Shown here: positions 3,911 through 42,723 of the stretch, piece after piece
Layout: each line of letters begins with the position of its first letter
Position numbering within the stretch: position 1 is the stretch's first letter
DNA from: Thermomicrobiales bacterium
Lineage (GTDB): Bacteria > Chloroflexota > Chloroflexia > Thermomicrobiales > UBA6265
Direction of reading: 5' to 3'
NCBI GenBank assembly: GCA_020853615.1
Contig: JADYYO010000027.1
Span: forward strand, 1 to 45,695
Length of the DNA: 45,695 nucleotides
Translations under genes and position numbers: made by a program
The notes under the pieces: model-generated
Databases searched by the model: none
What the model saw: only the letters and a program-made list of their open reading frames with translations
Told to the model about the DNA's origin: nothing

Positions 3911-3929
3911 GTCGGCTCCTTTCGGGGCC

Positions 3930-4050
3930 ATCAGCTATCGGCTATCAGCTACCAGCTATCAGTCGTTGACTCGAGAGCACGGAGCCTGACTCAATAACGC
4001 ACCGAATAACGACGAAAAACCAGACGCCGATAGCTGATAGCTGATAGCCC
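3930..4050. repeat. Facing heptanucleotide repeat tracts (AGCTATC)
   Basis: Between the isomerase and rhaM lie two short tracts built on a 7-base unit. The first, 3930-3964, repeats ATCAGCT/ATCGGCT/ACCAGCT. The second, 4027-4050, repeats GATAGCT and is the inverse complement of the first, so the two could pair across about 60 bases. The tract touches the start region of the isomerase. The unit length matches the other heptamer tracts in this window. Confidence 0.7.
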
Positions 4051-5837: not shown

Positions 5838-7364
5838 CTAAACCTTGGCGCCGCCGATGGCGCTATCGAGAATCTCCTCCTGCGTGACCGCGCCGCGCTG
5901 GAACTCGCCGGTGAGGCGGCCATCGGCGATCGTCAGAATCCGGTCCGACATCGAGAGGATTTCCGGCAGCTCCGACGAGACGAGCAGGATCGCCGCCCCC
6001 TCCTCGGCCAGGTTCTCCATCAGGCGGTAGACCTCGACCTTCGCCCCGACGTCGATGCCACGCGTCGGCTCCTCCAGCACGAAGACGCGGGGCCGCGCCT
6101 CGAGCCAGCGGCCGAGGACCACTTTCTGCTGGTTTCCGCCCGAGAGACGGCCGACTGGTGCCTCGATCCCCGGCGTCCGGATCTGGAGCGCGCGGACCAT
6201 CTCCACCGCCCGCGCCCGCTCGATCCCCTGCCGGATGAACCCCCAATCGCTGATGGCCCCGAGCGTGCTCAAGCTCAGATTCTCGCGCACGCTCATGCCG
6301 AGGACGAGCCCCTCTTCCTTCCGCTCCCCCGGCACTAGCGCGATCCCCGCCCGCCGCGCGCGGCCGGGCGTCGGCAGGCCGAGCGAGCGCCCCGCGACGA
6401 TCACCTCGCCCCGGTCGGCCCGCTCCGCCCCGAAGATCGCCTTGACCAACAGATCGGCGCCGGAGCCGAGCAGGCCGAAGACGCCGACGATCTCGCCGGA
6501 GCGGACCAGAAAGCTGATGTCGCTCAGCTTCTCCCCCCGGCCGAGGCCGCGCACCTCCAGCAGCGGCTCCCCCGGGGTCGACTCCCGCCGGGGGTAGAGC
6601 TCGTCGACGCTGCGGCCGACCATCGCCCGCACCACCTCGGCGCGGGTCGTCTCCGCCGTCGGCCAGTCGGCGACGAGCGCGCCGTCGCGCAGGACGGCGA
6701 TACGGTCGGCCAGGCTGAAGACCTCGTCGAGCCGGTGCGAGATGTAGATGATGGAAACGTCACTCTCGGCGAGCCGGCGGACGAGGGTAAAGAGGCGCTG
6801 CACCTCCTGCTCGCTCAGCGCCGCCGTCGGCTCGTCCATGACGATCACCCGCGCCTCGAGCGAGAGGGCACGCGCAATCTCGACGATCTGCCGCTCCGCG
6901 ACCGGCAGGCTGGCAACGATCGTACGCGGGTCGAGATGGGGCGCGAGCGGGGCGAGGATGGCGCGCGCCTCCCGGTTGACGGCCTCCCAGTCGACGACCG
7001 GGCCCCGCTTCGGCAGCCGTCCGAGGAGGACGTTCTCGGCGACGGTCAGCGTCGGGACGTAATTCAGCTCCTGGTAGATGACGGCGATGCCCATCTGGCG
7101 CGCCTGTGCCGGGTCGCTCAGGCGGATCTCCTGCCCATCGAGTGCGATCGTCCCCGCGTCGGGCACGATCTCGCCGGCCAGAATCTTCGCCAGCGTCGAT
7201 TTCCCGGCGCCATTCTCGCCGCAGAGCGCCAGAATCTCACCCCGGCCGACCGCGAGCGACACCCCGCGCACCGCCTGGATGCCGCCAAACGCCTTGGCGA
7301 TGCCCGAGAGTTGGAGACGTGGGTGTTGGGTGGTGGGTGTTGGGTGTTGAGGTGATTGGGTCAT
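5838..7364 (-). CDS. Sugar ABC transporter ATP-binding protein (RbsA type, two domains)
   Basis: This double ATPase energises a CUT2 sugar importer at the inner face of the membrane. Domain 1 has Walker A GENGAGKST, a Q-loop (VIYQELN) and Walker B VIVMDEPTAAL. Domain 2 has a degenerate Walker A (GLLGSGADLL) but keeps the signature LSGGNQQKV and Walker B VFVLEEPTRG, normal for this family. The frame extends to 7463, but those 33 residues come from repeat DNA. Starting at ATG 7364 gives 508 residues, near the family norm. Even so the first ~15 residues (MTQSPQHPTPTTQHP) are encoded by the heptamer repeat, and no clear ribosome-binding site is seen. Confidence 0.9.
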   Translation of the reverse strand: MTQSPQHPTPTTQHPRLQLSGIAKAFGGIQAVRGVSLAVGRGEILALCGENGAGKSTLAKILAGEIVPDAGTIALDGQEIRLSDPAQARQMGIAVIYQELNYVPTLTVAENVLLGRLPKRGPVVDWEAVNREARAILAPLAPHLDPRTIVASLPVAERQIVEIARALSLEARVIVMDEPTAALSEQEVQRLFTLVRRLAESDVSIIYISHRLDEVFSLADRIAVLRDGALVADWPTAETTRAEVVRAMVGRSVDELYPRRESTPGEPLLEVRGLGRGEKLSDISFLVRSGEIVGVFGLLGSGADLLVKAIFGAERADRGEVIVAGRSLGLPTPGRARRAGIALVPGERKEEGLVLGMSVRENLSLSTLGAISDWGFIRQGIERARAVEMVRALQIRTPGIEAPVGRLSGGNQQKVVLGRWLEARPRVFVLEEPTRGIDVGAKVEVYRLMENLAEEGAAILLVSSELPEILSMSDRILTIADGRLTGEFQRGAVTQEEILDSAIGGAKV

Positions 7365-7481
7365 GGGGTGATAGGGGTTGGGTGATGGGTGATGGGGGTT
7401 GGGTGATAGGAGGCCGTGTGCGTGACATCCGACATCCGCGATCCGACATCCATCACCTATCACCCATCACCCATCACCCCG
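7318..7481. repeat. Two facing heptanucleotide tracts (GGGTGTT/GGGTGAT and CATCCGA/CACCCAT)
   Basis: From 7318 to 7410 the plus strand is a run of G-rich 7-base units (GGGTGTT, GGGTGGT, GGGTGAT, AGGGGTT). From 7425 to 7481 it is a run of C-rich 7-base units (CATCCGA, GATCCGA, CACCTAT, CACCCAT). The two runs are near inverse complements. They fill the gap between the binding-protein and ATPase genes and run into the ATPase N-terminus. Confidence 0.8.
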
Positions 7482-17424: not shown

Positions 17425-17604
17425 CCCTCACCCCCAGCCGCCACCCAGCGGGTCCCCGTCCCACTCCGGTGGGAGAGGGGAGATCTTTCACGTGCTTTCG
17501 CATCAGATCACATTGATGTTATAGGAGGGCAGGCATCGAATTTACATATATCAAGATGTCTTGCGACGAGCGTCCCCGCTCCCACCGGAGGGGGAGAGGG
17601 TGAG
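17425..17604. repeat. MITE-like element, CCCTCACCCCC family, copy A
   Basis: The left arm (17425-17482) starts CCCTCACCCCCAGCCGCCAC and contains CTCCGGTGGGAGAGGGG. The right arm (17571-17604) is its inverse complement in shortened form (CTCCCACCGGAGGGGGAG, GGTGAG). Between them lies an AT-rich core of about 90 bases that contrasts sharply with the genome. There is no open frame of note. It fills most of the 315-base gap between plsC and the next gene. Confidence 0.75.
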
Positions 17605-34871: not shown

Positions 34872-35050
34872 CGACATCCTCCTCGGATCGGCACGATGGC
34901 GGGGGTGAGACCTCGTCCCGCACGAACATCGCGCGGCGATACGCCCTCGCGCATGAACCGCGCCAGCGCGGCAGCGGCGCGCGACGCACGCGGCCATGCC
35001 AGGCGGAGATTTGTCTTTGCTATCGTTCATTGCACGAAGGAGGACGCGCC

Positions 35051-35329
35051 GTGAATGTCACCCTGACCCCCCAACTCGAAGCGATGATTCGGGAGCGCGT
35101 CACCTCCGGCCGCTACACGGACGCCAGCGAGGTCGTGGCGGAGGCGCTGCGCCTCCTCGAGGAGCGCGAGCGGCTGGATCACCTGCGCTCGCTGCTCGCC
35201 GTCGGGATGGAACAGGCCAAACGTGGCGAACTGGTCGAGCTCACCCCGGAGCTGATGGACGAGATTGCCGAACGAGCCCGGGAGCGGGTCCGGCGCGGAG
35301 AAGAACCGGCTCCTGATGTCTGCCCATAA
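35051..35329 (+). CDS. ParD/CopG-type antitoxin, orphan
   Basis: The 92-residue protein opens VNVTLTPQLEAMIRERVTSG then RYTDASEVVAEALRLLEERE, a ribbon-helix-helix DNA-binding domain typical of ParD antitoxins. The C-terminal acidic helix (LVELTPELMDEIAERARERV) would normally wrap a ParE toxin. GTG 35051 follows AAGGAGG. No ParE gene follows: the next gene, treY, is on the other strand and ends only 10 bases away. It is therefore an orphan antitoxin, possibly acting as a repressor or neutralising a distant toxin. Confidence 0.8.
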   Translation: MNVTLTPQLEAMIRERVTSGRYTDASEVVAEALRLLEERERLDHLRSLLAVGMEQAKRGELVELTPELMDEIAERARERVRRGEEPAPDVCP

Positions 35330-35338
35330 TTCGATCCC

Positions 35339-38300
35339 TCAAGCAATCCGCTCCAGCAGCGCGAACGGCAGCGCCCCGAAGACCTCGCCCAGCGCCAGCG
35401 CCGCCCCTCCCTCTCCGGGCGTGGAGGCGATCTCCGTGTCGGTGAAGCAATCGCGGTAGCGCGTGCCAGGTTCGGCGCCAGGCAGGAGCAGCCGCGTCTC
35501 TCCCCAGACCGCGCGCCCTATCGGATCGATCCGCTCCTTGCCAATCAAACCGACGACCAGGCGCGGCACGGTGACGATCGCCTCCTGCGCTCCATGACGC
35601 CGGGCGAAGGCGACGACGTGGTCCGCCTGCTCCCCCGTTGCATCGAGCGGGAGGTAGTCGCCCCGCGCGAAGAGATCGGGGCGCGCGAGGCGGTAGGCGA
35701 GGGCGCGTGAAGTGAGATAGAGTTTCACTCGCCCATCCGCCTTCGTCTCCAATAGCTCGGCGGCGAGGCGCTTCCCCGGTTTGCGCCGCTGCAGCCCCTT
35801 CAGGAGCCGCTCGCGCTCGGCGTAGTCGACCGGGCGGCGGTTGTCCGGGTCGACGAGGCTCTGGTCCCACATCTCGGTCCCCTGATAGAGGTCGGGCGCC
35901 CCGGGTGCGGTCAGCTTCAGGAGCTGCTGGGCAAGCGCGTTGAAGGCCCCGGCGTGGGCGACGAGATCGCGCAGGGCGGGGAGATCCTCCAGGAAGGGGT
36001 TGCGGCGCGAGGCGTCGAGCGTGGCGCGCACAAAGCGCCGGATCGCCTCCTCGTACTCGGCGTCCGGGTTGATCCAGCTCGTCTGCTGCTGCGCCTCGCG
36101 CGCCGCCTTCAACATGAACGCCTCGATCCGCTCGATGAAGGTCTCATCCACCGTCTCCGCGCCCCATGGCCACGCCCCGAGCAGCGTCTGGTAGAAGAGG
36201 TATTCGTCGTTGCGGGAGGGCGCCGGCTGCCCCTCGACCCGCGTCTTGTGGCGGCGGTTGACGCGCGCCCAGCGGTTGACCGCCGCCCGCCATTCCCGCG
36301 GAATTTCGGAGAGGACGGCGATGCGGGCCCGCACATCCTCGCTCCGCTTCGTGTCGTGGGTGGAGGAGGTGAGGAGGGCGTCCGGCCAGCGCCGCAGCCG
36401 CTCGGCGCTCTGGCGGTGGAAGTCGGCCGGGCTCGTCCCGAACTCGGCCGGGTCGCCGCCGACCTCGTTGAGCGCGATGAGGCGGTTGTAGATGTAGAAG
36501 GCGGTATCCTCGACCCCCTTCGCCATCACCGGGCCGGTGAGCTGCTGGAATTTCATGACGAAGTGGCAGCGCTGGGCGAACTCCATCTCCGAGAGGGAGC
36601 CATCGTCCTCGAGGAGGAGGACACCCTTCAGAAAATCGAAGACGGAGGGGTCGAGGCCGGGGTTGCGCCGTCGCGCCTGCGCCACCGCCCGCTCGATGGC
36701 GCGCCGGTCACGCTCCGGCACACCGCTGCCGTTGCAGACGATGTAGGTGCGGTAAATCGGGAAGCCGGCGATTACCTCGCGCAGGGCGTGACGCAGCGTG
36801 CTCAGGGTGAGGTCGCGCGTGCGCCGGTTCTGCTCCGAGATGCGGTTGACCGCCCGCGCCAGCACGTTCGTCTCGCTGGCGAGCGCGGTGCGCAGCATCA
36901 GGTCCTTCGCGGCGTGGGCGATGGCGGCGAAGGAGCGCCGCTCGTGCGTGAAGCGGGTGTAGATCTGGTCGAAGGCGCGGCGCTGCTCGCTGTCGACGCA
37001 GAGCCCGGTGACGACCCGCGCGAACTCGTAGCCGACCGTGCCATGCACCGCCCAGTCGGTCGGCAGCAGCTCGCCCGGCTCCAGAATCTTCTCGACGACG
37101 ACATAGAGGGGCAGGCGGTCGGCGATCTCCGCGCCCTCGTCCGGCTGGCCCCGCCAGAGGTCGCCCAGGGCCGGGTCGATCGCCTCCCAGTCGATCTCCG
37201 CCATCTCCACATGATCGGGATGGAGGGCGAGCCAGGCGGCGCGTTGCAAGTCGCGGAAGTAGCCGGCGGGGTCCCAGAGGCCGTCCGGGTGATCGATGCG
37301 CAGCCCGGTCACCGCCCCCTCGGCGACGAGGCGGAGGAGGAGGGCGTGGGCGGCGGCGAAGACCTCCGGCGCCTCCTGCCGGATGGCGGCCAGCTCGTTG
37401 ATGGCGAAGAAGCGGCGGTAGTTGATCTCCTCGCCGGCGGTGCGGAAGGAGGAGAGGCGGTACGACTGCGCGTCGAGCAGGCGGTCGAGTGCGTCGAAGC
37501 TGGCGGGGTCGGCCGGGTCGCCATTGATGGCGCGCACCTGGGCATCGACGGCCGCGGCGATCTCGGGCGAGGCGGCGAGGAGGTCGGCTAGGCGGCGCCT
37601 GGCCACGATCTGCTCGCGCCGCCGCTCGGCGATCAGCTCCGAGTCGATTTCGTCCTGCGGCGGCAAGCGCTCGAAGGCGGTGATGATGCTCTGGAACTCG
37701 AGGAGGTGGAGGTCGTGCGGGGTGAGTTCGGTGTCGTAGGTCGGAAGTTGTGAGTCGGAAGTCGGAAGTCGTGAGTCGTCGAGTGGGAGGGGCATGGTTC
37801 CAGATGGAACCGGCTCTCCGGCGGCGCCTTCCCTCACCCCCAGCCCCTCTCCCAGTGCGCTGGGAGAGGAGAGCAGCGCCTCGAGAGCGGGCAGGAGGAT
37901 CATCGGGTAGGTAGGAGGGGCGATGGGGAAGACCGCGCCGAAGTAGTGGACGCTGAAGGCGGCGTCGTGCAGCTCGAGCCGCAGCTCGCCGCGCTCCAGG
38001 ACGACGCCATACGGCTCGCCGAGGACGGGGAGGAGGATCTTGCCGCGCAGCTCTTCCTTCAGGGGGCGCCAGTCGATGTCGAAGACGTCGGCATAGGGGG
38101 AGGTGCGGCCATTCTCGAGGACGTCCTGCCACCAGGCGTTGGCGCCCCCGGCGATCCCCATGTGGTTCGGCACGACATCGACGAGCAGCCCCATCCCCCG
38201 CTCGCGCAGCGCCGCGACCAACTCCCCCAAGTCCGCGTCAGAGCCGATCTCCGGGTTGAGGCTGCCGTAGTCGGTGACGTCGTAGCCGTGCATGCTGCCA

Positions 38301-38533
38301 GGGGTGGCGCGGAGCATGGGGGAGGTGTAGAGCGCGCCGATGCCGAGATCGCGCAGGTAGGGGACGATCGCCCGCGCGTCGGCGAAGGTGAAGCCGGCGT
38401 TGAGCTGGACGCGGTAGGTGGACGAAGGGGGGTAGGGGGATAGGGGGGTAGGGGGATAAGGGGGGGAATCTGGCGCGTTCAACGGTCGGGGACCTCCGCT
38501 TGGGAATACGGCGATGGTTGTTTCGGCTGACAT
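35339..38533 (-). CDS. treY: Maltooligosyl trehalose synthase, with repeat-derived insertions
   Basis: TreY turns the reducing end of maltodextrins into a trehalosyl unit in the cytoplasm. At 1064 residues it is longer than usual. Amylase-type motifs are present: STYRVQLNAGFTFADARAIV, GYDVTDYGSLNPEIGSDADL, the nucleophile region ITGLRIDHPDGLWDP-like (GLRIDHPDG), and MKFQQLTGPVMAKGVEDTAF. Residues ~22-38 (PPYPPTPLSPYPPSS) and ~220-265 (SPSALGEGLGVREG to TSDSQLPTYDTEL) come from repeat DNA, the first and last of heptamer type and the middle from a CCCTCACCCCC arm. Translation stays in frame. A TreZ partner is not in the window. Confidence 0.9.
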   Translation of the reverse strand: MSAETTIAVFPSGGPRPLNAPDSPPYPPTPLSPYPPSSTYRVQLNAGFTFADARAIVPYLRDLGIGALYTSPMLRATPGSMHGYDVTDYGSLNPEIGSDADLGELVAALRERGMGLLVDVVPNHMGIAGGANAWWQDVLENGRTSPYADVFDIDWRPLKEELRGKILLPVLGEPYGVVLERGELRLELHDAAFSVHYFGAVFPIAPPTYPMILLPALEALLSSPSALGEGLGVREGAAGEPVPSGTMPLPLDDSRLPTSDSQLPTYDTELTPHDLHLLEFQSIITAFERLPPQDEIDSELIAERRREQIVARRRLADLLAASPEIAAAVDAQVRAINGDPADPASFDALDRLLDAQSYRLSSFRTAGEEINYRRFFAINELAAIRQEAPEVFAAAHALLLRLVAEGAVTGLRIDHPDGLWDPAGYFRDLQRAAWLALHPDHVEMAEIDWEAIDPALGDLWRGQPDEGAEIADRLPLYVVVEKILEPGELLPTDWAVHGTVGYEFARVVTGLCVDSEQRRAFDQIYTRFTHERRSFAAIAHAAKDLMLRTALASETNVLARAVNRISEQNRRTRDLTLSTLRHALREVIAGFPIYRTYIVCNGSGVPERDRRAIERAVAQARRRNPGLDPSVFDFLKGVLLLEDDGSLSEMEFAQRCHFVMKFQQLTGPVMAKGVEDTAFYIYNRLIALNEVGGDPAEFGTSPADFHRQSAERLRRWPDALLTSSTHDTKRSEDVRARIAVLSEIPREWRAAVNRWARVNRRHKTRVEGQPAPSRNDEYLFYQTLLGAWPWGAETVDETFIERIEAFMLKAAREAQQQTSWINPDAEYEEAIRRFVRATLDASRRNPFLEDLPALRDLVAHAGAFNALAQQLLKLTAPGAPDLYQGTEMWDQSLVDPDNRRPVDYAERERLLKGLQRRKPGKRLAAELLETKADGRVKLYLTSRALAYRLARPDLFARGDYLPLDATGEQADHVVAFARRHGAQEAIVTVPRLVVGLIGKERIDPIGRAVWGETRLLLPGAEPGTRYRDCFTDTEIASTPGEGGAALALGEVFGALPFALLERIA
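37740..37873. repeat. Heptamer tract plus CCCTCACCCCC arm inside treY
   Basis: Within the treY frame, 37740-37781 consists of six exact-length 7-base units (GTCGGAA, GTTGTGA, GTCGGAA twice, GTCGTGA, GTCGTCG). Then 37831-37873 is one inverted-repeat arm of the CCCTCACCCCC family (CCCTCACCCCCAGCCCCTCT, then CCCAGTGCGCTGGGAGAGG). Both are read through as protein. Confidence 0.85.
38425..38468. repeat. G-rich heptamer tract in the treY N-terminus
   Basis: Units of seven to eight bases (AGGGGGGT, AGGGGGAT, AAGGGGG) make a purine-rich run on the plus strand. On the coding strand it becomes the Pro/Tyr/Ser-rich start of TreY. Confidence 0.6.
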
Positions 38534-39329: not shown

Positions 39330-39398
39330 CCCTCACCCCCAGCCCCTCTCCCTGCGCACAGGGCCAGGAACCCGCTGGGTGGCGGCCGGGGGTGAGGG
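39330..39398. repeat. Short CCCTCACCCCC-family element (internal deletion)
   Basis: It starts CCCTCACCCCCAGCCCCTCT and ends GGTGGCGGCCGGGGGTGAGG plus G, the two outer ends of the full elements at 17425 and 42512, joined with almost no core. It lies just after the DsrE-like gene. Confidence 0.75.
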
Positions 39399-40424: not shown

Positions 40425-40936
40425 AGGCGATGGTCCCAGTGGCGCGTAAAGAGCGTGTCATGCTGAACGAAGCGAAGGATCCCGGCTCCCCGCAACGGCG
40501 TTTCGGGCGACGCGAGATGCTTCGCTCCGCTCAGCATGACACGGGGCGGGGGCGCGGCCGGTCGCTGGCGCGGCCCCGGCGCGGGCAGGCCATTGTCGAG
40601 ACGGCGCTGGTGCTGCCGATCTTCCTTCTCGTCGTCTTCGGCCTCTTCGACCTCGGGCGTGTCGTCTTTCTCAAGGTCGAGCTGGAGAACGCGGTCCGCG
40701 AGGGGGCGCGGGCGGGGATGGTGATGGCGACGCTCGATCAGGCCGCGGTGCGAACCATCGTGGCGAGACAACCCGGCCTCGCAAGCGCGACCGTCACGCC
40801 AGCCTGCAATCCCAGCCCCTGCAAGTACGGATCGAAGCTCACCGTCGCCGCGACGCTGCCCGTGACGCTCGTCGCGGGGGTGCTCCCCGTGCCTACGTTG
40901 ACGCTCAGCGCGTCGGCCTCGGTCTGGCTCGACTAG
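40421..40936 (+). CDS. TadE-like pilus protein with repeat-derived N-terminus
   Basis: The 171-residue protein has the TadE-like core GQAIVETALVLPIFLLVVFG then LFDLGRVVFLKVELENAVRE, a membrane helix followed by an external domain with a Cys pair (PACNPSPCKYG). The first ~50 residues are unusual: residues ~11-40 (ERVMLNEAKDPGSPQRRFGR) are the translation of a GTGTCATCCTGAG-family repeat. GTG 40421 overlaps the peptidase stop (GTGA) and is therefore taken as the start; ATGs inside the repeat are alternatives. Its role in pilus assembly is by family and operon position. Confidence 0.8.
   Translation: MKAMVPVARKERVMLNEAKDPGSPQRRFGRREMLRSAQHDTGRGRGRSLARPRRGQAIVETALVLPIFLLVVFGLFDLGRVVFLKVELENAVREGARAGMVMATLDQAAVRTIVARQPGLASATVTPACNPSPCKYGSKLTVAATLPVTLVAGVLPVPTLTLSASASVWLD
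40453..40543. repeat. Palindromic element, GTGTCATCCTGAG family, copy 5 (inside tadE-like gene)
   Basis: Left CGTGTCATGCTGAACGAAGC and right GCTTCGCTCCGCTCAGCATG then ACACG are inverse complements with the usual ~40-base middle (AAGGATCCCGGCTCC, CGCGAGATG). Unlike the other copies it sits within a reading frame. Confidence 0.85.
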
Positions 40937-41418: not shown

Positions 41419-42470
41419 TCCGCCGCTTCCGGAACCGACTTACAAGCCTATCCAGGGGTCGCGCTCTCGGCCGGCCTCGCCGGGGCCAGGCGACGATCAT
41501 GTTCGCCCTGCTTGCCGTTCCGATGATCGGCATGCTCGGCCTCGCCGTCGATGGCGGCGTCTATCTCTACGCCCGGCGCACCGCGCAGGCAGCGGCAGAC
41601 GCGGCGGCGCTGGCCGGGGCGCGGCAGTTGTCGAAGTCGACCAACGCGGCGCCGAAGCCGGCCCAGGCGGAGGTGACCGCCATTGCCGGTCAGAATGGGC
41701 AGGGGAGCATCGCCCCGACCGTCCTCGAATGCCGGTACATCGACCAGACCGGGGGATTCGTCTCGCCGGGACCGTCCTGCGGGAGCAGCCCTCCGGCCAA
41801 TGCCAGCGGGGTCTTCGTCAAGACGACCGTCACCGTGCGAACCTTCTTCATCCCGGTCCTTCCGGGTGGCCCCTCGTCATCGACGACGACCGCGTCGGCG
41901 AAAGCCCTCGTGCAGCGCTCTGGCGGCATCCCGGCGGATGCGCCCTTCATCGTCTGCGGCAACACGGCGAAGACGACCGACGGCACGCTGCTGCCGATTG
42001 TCGAGAGCATCTCCCCCTTCAAGCTCAAGCAATCCTCCATCGGGCAGACCTTCGTCATCCACGACTCCAACCTCGGCGAGGCCGACTGCAACGCGCAGGG
42101 GAACAGTTTCAAGGGGCTGGCCGATCAGGGGGAGAACGACGGCCGCGACGTCCCCGGCTGGCTGCGGTACGACAACGGAACGAAAGCCGGCCCGACGCGG
42201 GCTCAGGTCGATGGCCCTGACGGCTGCGCGCCGAACACGCCGCCCCCCTACAAGTGCGTGATGCTCCTGCCGCTGGCGACCGACACGCCCAAGCCGACCA
42301 AGCAGCCGCCCGAGATCTACGTCTACGGCTTCGCCGCCTTCGAGGTGACGCAGAAGGATTCGAACACGCACCTCGGCAAGCTGCTCGGCCCGTACATTGT
42401 CTCCGGCCCTGGGGGCGAGGGGTGGACGCAGGGCGACGGCGGCGTGGTGACGGTCCGGCTGGCGGGGTGA
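41415..42470 (+). CDS. TadG-like pilus protein
   Basis: The 351-residue protein has an N-terminal TadE/TadG segment (RRGQATIMFALLAVPMIGML, then GLAVDGGVYLYARRTAQAAA and DAAALAGARQL), typical for putative pilus-associated Tad proteins. A large external domain with several Cys (LECRYIDQTG, GPSCGSS, IVCGNTA, EADCNAQ, DGCAPN, YKCVMLL) follows. No von Willebrand motif is evident, so it is a shorter TadG variant. It is translated from ATG 41415, overlapping the tadE stop. The next gene is separated by a repeat-filled 331-base gap. Confidence 0.8.
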   Translation: MIRRFRNRLTSLSRGRALGRPRRGQATIMFALLAVPMIGMLGLAVDGGVYLYARRTAQAAADAAALAGARQLSKSTNAAPKPAQAEVTAIAGQNGQGSIAPTVLECRYIDQTGGFVSPGPSCGSSPPANASGVFVKTTVTVRTFFIPVLPGGPSSSTTTASAKALVQRSGGIPADAPFIVCGNTAKTTDGTLLPIVESISPFKLKQSSIGQTFVIHDSNLGEADCNAQGNSFKGLADQGENDGRDVPGWLRYDNGTKAGPTRAQVDGPDGCAPNTPPPYKCVMLLPLATDTPKPTKQPPEIYVYGFAAFEVTQKDSNTHLGKLLGPYIVSGPGGEGWTQGDGGVVTVRLAG

Positions 42471-42511
42471 GGGGGAGGATGGCGCGAATGGAGAGCCGTG
42501 AAGTCCGAAAA

Positions 42512-42723
42512 CCCTCACCCCCGGCCCCTCTCCCACCGCAGTGGGAGAGGGGAGCGTTGCCCCCGGCATTCCCGACGGAAGCGAAGCTTGTGTCCCCATA
42601 CGGTGAAGAAGGGTTCGGTTTCCTGAGCCGAGGCGGCGCAATTGTCAAATCATCTCGCGAAAGCCCTCCCCTCTCCCACCGGAGTGGGCCGGGTACCCTC
42701 TGGGTGGCGGCCGGGGGTGAGGG
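42512..42723. repeat. MITE-like element, CCCTCACCCCC family, copy B (full length)
   Basis: The left arm (42512-42555) CCCTCACCCCCGGCCCCTCT then CCCACCGCAGTGGGAGAGGG and the right arm (42664-42723) ending GGTGGCGGCCGGGGGTGAGG plus G are inverse complements. The core is about 110 bases. It lies in the gap between tadG and cpaB within the pilus operon. Confidence 0.8.

Follow-up and report, generated by a model that had tools for sequence, protein, structure and literature searches.

The treY gene of a Thermomicrobiales genome carries an in-frame insert made of two kinds of repeat DNA, a REP-like palindrome and a tract of heptamers, which together add ~46 residues to a conserved enzyme of trehalose synthesis. 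We put a probability of about 0.87 on the reading that non-autonomous repeat elements landed in treY and were retained as tolerated peptide, in the manner of the palindromic elements of Rickettsia (RPE), with the palindrome preceding the split from a sister species, G003, and the heptamers coming later. On this reading, the palindrome would have entered a loop after residue ~222 in the common ancestor of the two species, and the heptamer tract would have been added afterwards in the lineage studied here, or else lost in G003. The inserts would have persisted because the reading frame stays open and the position is a loop, and the 46 added residues would form an unstructured surface loop, i.e., selfish or spreading DNA that was tolerated and turned into peptide.

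The treY gene and its insert

The window, i.e., the whole 45,695-nucleotide stretch of DNA that was analyzed, is contig 27 of a MAG (G000; 86% complete, 4.23 Mb, 413 contigs) whose closest named relatives are MAGs of Thermomicrobiales and Chloroflexia. The open frame of 1064 codons reported for treY in the initial annotation was found intact. Its product scored 977 bits against TIGR02401 (cutoff, 499), and the top fold matches of its AlphaFold model were the solved MTSases 6lcv, 6lcu, 5zcr, 1iv8, and 3hje. Among 46 aligned TreY proteins, E481 and D727 were invariant and D414 nearly invariant; we take D414, E481, and D727 to be the catalytic Asp/Glu/Asp. The enzyme is presumably made and active. 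An Rfam search of the treY region gave no match. A small plus-strand ORF (34996-35316) adjoins treY and resembles, by eye, an antitoxin of the ParD type (ribbon-helix-helix); no toxin gene was noticed next to it.

Alignment showed that residues 223-268 are missing from ~30 other TreY proteins and occur, in a shorter form, only in the congener sequence L039, so that the segment is an insertion confined to the genus. The inserted DNA is a 138-bp composite of palindrome, spacer, and six heptamers (Table 1). The CCCTCACCCCC palindrome arm at 37831 encodes residues ~221-235, and the palindrome (37831-37869) is identical at 39/39 nt to an intergenic copy (L123 3880-3918) and folds as a hairpin with a 10-bp stem (z = -2.6). 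The 4.23-Mb genome contains 169 copies of CCCTCACCCCC as compared to one of a reversed control, and 32 period-7 arrays were observed versus 0 in a third-order Markov control of 817 kb. Since the longest match of treY control stretches to the sampled genome was only 16-17 nt, these results indicate that the observation is real and not an effect of composition. Therefore, the earlier proposal that a heptamer tract and a CCCTCACCCCC arm form a repeat-made insertion within TreY holds. Relatives having the same segment with unrelated DNA, which had been named as the finding that would speak against it, did not turn up in the alignment; the only congener with sequence at this place has the same palindrome DNA.

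A second repeat lies at the N terminus of the protein. No ATG, GTG, or TTG is present between this tract and the conserved STYRVQL, and the nearest in-frame start upstream is the TTG at 38480-38482, so the tract must be translated. The initial annotation had described a heptamer-derived Pro/Ser/Tyr start; the translated repeat stands, but it is best described with a unit of 8 bases (AGGGGGRT) rather than 7, since the TRF scores were 57 for a period of 8, 71 for 16, and only 38 for 7, the last with 17% indels. At the corresponding place, L039 has a different repeat, composed of CCCATCA/CCCCATCA units.

Table 1. Coordinates of treY, its repeat-derived segments and loops, and translated repeats in other genes (window positions unless a contig handle is given)
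Feature	Position	Strand	Basis
treY (malto-oligosyltrehalose synthase, 1064 aa)	35339..38533	minus	TIGR02401, fold matches, conserved residues
In-frame insert, residues ~223-268 (~46 aa)	37730..37867	minus	Alignment with other TreY; pLDDT <50 at 226-267
REP-like palindrome, translated as SPSALGEGLGVRE	37831..37869	minus	39/39 match to intergenic copy; 169-copy family; hairpin
50-bp spacer separating palindrome and heptamers	37781..37830	minus	Initial bases AAGGCGCCG correspond to CAGGCGCCG in L039
Heptamer tract GTCGGAA/GTCGTGA x6, translated as DDSRLPTSDSQLPTYD, residues ~252-266	37738..37780	minus	TRF; without counterpart at L039 site
Translated 8-bp tandem repeat at N terminus, residues ~24-36	38426..38464	minus	TRF; pLDDT <50 at residues 1-32
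TTG, likely start codon (TTGAACGC)	38480..38482	minus	Conserved with L039
Disordered loop, residues 444-464	37142..37204	minus	pLDDT; L039 palindrome pair inserted at loop start
Loop, residues 601-606	36716..36733	minus	Site of heptamer-armed elements in L039 and L029
PMT/NHL membrane protein, in-frame REP-like palindrome pair	L134 704-816		Insert missing in 11 relatives
YfhO-like protein, in-frame REP-like palindrome pair	L133 19734-19864		Residues 34-98 missing in G001 and G002
Regulator loop heptamer tracts (G001)	L242 1492-1581; L249 1486-1580; L258 1450-1540		

History of the insert in related species

The treY contigs of the sister species G003 (L039) and of the congener G001 (L029) were compared with the window; the tree of the three is (window, (G003, G001)), with support of 1.00 and 0.98. 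The TreY protein of L039, a separate assembly, is 73% identical to that of the window and carries the palindrome at the same insert site, on the same strand and with the same frame and offset. In both genes the palindrome is followed directly by the 3' junction GGCGCCG. GGCGCC after GGGGTGAGGG was found in one of 124 copies in G000 and one of 24 in G003, and in each genome that one is the TreY copy. Since site, strand, and frame are shared and the junction follows no other copy examined, an insertion before the species split is favored, and the palindrome in treY is probably ancestral to the window species and G003. Only the window species has the heptamer part, of 27 residues; the L039 site is without it. 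From this comparison of sequences, the TreY insert is a composite whose two parts appear to differ in age, with the palindrome first and the heptamers as a separate event.

It could be argued instead that a single permissive loop was a hotspot, struck twice independently by palindromes in two sister species. Two other sites of treY were indeed struck repeatedly in congeners. L039 has two inverted REP-like palindromes after window residues 439 and 446 (site 2), and G003 and G001 have a common insert with inverted heptamer arms after window residue 605 (site 3), its words being GTCGGAA and GTCGTGA in G003 versus GCGGGAG in G001. Insertion sites are thus shared between orthologs at site 1, the residue ~222 site (L039), and at site 3 (L039 and L029). 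The G001 insert at site 2 adjoins the contig start and was given no weight; there, L029 1-52 is a poly-G run at a repeat insert and probably a sequencing or assembly artefact. A loop of LuxR/BTAD-type regulators was likewise struck in three paralogs, by different heptamers. However, two independent strikes at site 1 would have had to agree in strand, frame, and offset, and to share a GGCGCCG junction that follows no other sampled palindrome in either genome, and we regard this alternative as unlikely.

Insert position in the predicted structure

The AlphaFold model of TreY, computed on the 46-sequence alignment, had a mean pLDDT of 89 and a pTM of 0.88. Three segments fell below a pLDDT of 50 (1-32, 226-267, and 444-464), although low confidence is also expected at positions without alignment depth, and the model is a prediction rather than a structure. 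In this model, the insert (226-267) forms a disordered loop that connects helix 210-222 to helix 275-288, which fits the earlier suggestion of a surface loop. The inserts of L039 and G001 TreY coincide with the remaining weak loops of this model. At residue 605, the insertion site lies in a loop ahead of helix 607-623 and adjoins a stretch of lowered confidence (591-600, pLDDT 75). Taken together, the low-confidence segments and loop positions suggest that the inserts of treY are located in loops or at disordered ends.

Since two species have retained the insert after they diverged, and treY has received inserts repeatedly in three, one might suppose that it gained a useful role, e.g., as a binding or solubility tail, and was selected rather than tolerated. 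This is quite improbable in light of the poor conservation of the peptide (SPSALGEGLGVREG versus SPSPIEMGEGGRGVRAG, plus the species-specific 27-residue stretch), its predicted disorder, and repeat words and lengths that vary by species. We favor an insert peptide that would be neutral and retained by tolerance.

An assembly chimera, in which repeat DNA was misjoined into treY, also had to be weighed, since a MAG in 413 contigs with repeats is prone to misjoins and the G001 treY contig opens with a poly-G artefact; nevertheless, the frame is exact across both junctions, the insert is located in a loop, and the independent L039 contig has a homologous junction, all of which make a chimera very improbable. 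Finally, low complexity is to be expected of a disordered loop in a 69% GC genome, but a native TreY linker that is repeat-like by composition only is scarcely credible, since the site is empty in all TreY outside the genus and the 39-nt identity with an intergenic palindrome far exceeds the 16-17 nt of the treY controls.

Repeat families and other genes

The sampled DNA came to 817 kb in G000 (19% of the genome, chiefly contigs that bear the palindrome), 387 kb in G003, and 216 kb in G001. In the G000 sample, 3 of 42 palindromic REP-like elements were interior to a gene, flanked on each side by coding signal, as compared to a gene content of 74% (p ~1e-19), a proportion not to be extrapolated closely to the genome since contigs were picked for carrying the palindrome. 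Such strong depletion suggests that the copies retained in genes are a tolerated, filtered minority. The three genes encode TreY, a PMT/NHL membrane protein, and a YfhO-like protein (Table 1); for the last, the G003 match seems to extend into the palindrome. Single 10-mer matches with one mismatch in genes were mostly attributable to chance and were dropped.

The REP-like palindrome recurs in the window, singly or as inverted pairs, at 17425-17595, 39330-39398, and 42412-42723. Outside the window, a full REP-like element has inverted repeats of 40-60 bp on either side of a core of ~100 bp; GTGACA and CGACGTCA recur as motifs in these elements. Two additional families of dispersed short inverted repeats, CGTGTCATGCTGAACGAAGCGAAGGATC and GTAGGGGCGACGCCTGCGTCGCCC, were noted (window 40454-40543; L133 390-507).

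The heptamer elements are built as inverted arms around a variable core, and two of the three tested folded as hairpins (z = -5.5 and -3.0), the L039 element having a z of -1.2. Arms of 4-6 units around a variable core were also seen at window 3927-4049 and 7318-7479, L164 8431-8557, and L269 1379-1537, and paired arms often differ in word yet preserve the orientation of the G-rich strand. A heptamer match at L164 10946-10976 resembles chance coding sequence and was left out of the counts. Three LuxR/BTAD-type regulators of G001 contain translated heptamer elements, all in one loop, and a G038 regulator paralog has GACCAGC heptamers in the same loop. Translated heptamers recur in this LuxR/BTAD/NB-ARC-type regulator loop across paralogs and species (including L326 of G038 and L322 of G000), with different words each time.

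These heptamer elements might conceivably constitute a separate palindromic class in Thermomicrobiales, an idea that we hold only tentatively and that is more doubtful than not. Such elements, with two inverted arms of 4-5 heptamers and a variable core, would repeatedly colonize permissive protein loops in frame and supply new loop peptides, the arm words changing between orthologs, as at site 3 of treY, while position and the period of 7 stay constant. If this is true, joint replacement of the words of the two arms would be a sign of a copying or templating mechanism that is new.

With regard to mobility, neither a target-site duplication nor a cognate transposase was found for the palindrome. 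The sole Y1 transposase (Y1_Tnp) of G000, at L138 1-1000, is flanked by a pair of the different hairpin GCCGGAGGCTGAAAGCCTCCGGC, with a CCCTCACCCCC palindrome nested ~200 bp upstream. A GTAG or CGTC tag at the palindrome foot is a mark of REP/RAYT systems (PMC3733652), and direct reading of the TreY palindrome showed neither tag on either strand. Mobilization of the CCCTCACCCCC palindrome by a RAYT is not supported by this arrangement. The elements appear to have moved as mobile, non-autonomous DNA.

Comparison with known repeat systems

Palindromic repeats that have turned into protein are best known in Rickettsia and Wolbachia, which are reduced intracellular bacteria. The same outcome now appears in high-GC Chloroflexota, involving two unrelated kinds of repeat, one enzyme, several loops, and three sister species. 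Compared with one another, the treY genes range from an empty site through one and two repeats to swapped repeats, which allows tests of the tolerance, turnover, and possible function of such peptides; they also serve as a warning that an annotated loop peptide (e.g., SPSALGEGLGVRE) can turn out to be repeat DNA. Our literature search, which covered part of the literature, found no report of such repeats from Thermomicrobiales or Chloroflexota.

Small elements fused in frame to ORFs have been reviewed (PMC2229807, PMC10969869). The MITEs of enterobacteria and Neisseria (ERIC, Correia; PMC2229807) resemble the present elements in being small, non-autonomous, and fused in frame to ORFs, but differ in that no target-site duplication was found here. 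REP/BIME elements share a GC-rich palindrome of 20-40 bp, more than 100 copies, and frequent pairing in inverted orientation about a core of ~100 bp, whereas the TreY copy is without the GTAG/CGTC tag and some copies here lie in genes and are translated. The heptameric repeats of Xanthomonas and Nostoc (GGGAATC, GGGGA(C/T)T) are mainly intergenic, with 70-75 inverted pairs per genome in Xanthomonas (PMC4692102). They, too, have a period of 7 and run to ~4 or more units; however, the inverted pairs of Xanthomonas are single-word, while many words occur here (GTCGGAA, GTCGTGA, GCGGGAG, GGCTATT, GGGTGAT, GACATCC), often differing between arms, and the elements described here have a variable core and several translated copies in genes.

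The closest parallel is with RPE, a comparison made in the initial annotation that proved apt as an analogy. RPE, described by Ogata et al., are palindromic repeats found both between genes and, in frame, within conserved enzymes, and in R. conorii nearly half of 44 lie within ORFs (PMC2229807, PMC10969869, PMC3767692). RPE orthologs have inserts at the same site, at times of different families, and the choice between hotspot and common origin was left open (PMC3767692). Similarly, the treY palindrome is dispersed and intergenic, occurs in frame in conserved genes, is missing in relatives, and shares its site between orthologs; the surface or disordered position of RPE inserts is also found for TreY, by prediction only. 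The differences are the host (Chloroflexota, Thermomicrobiales), the high GC content, the composite with heptamers, and the small share of palindromes in genes (3 of 42 sampled versus nearly half of 44). RPE measure 100-150 bp, whereas the palindrome is ~40 bp and reaches 138 bp only as a composite insert. By analogy, then, the treY repeat insert acts like the palindromic elements of Rickettsia but, by its length, is outside that family.
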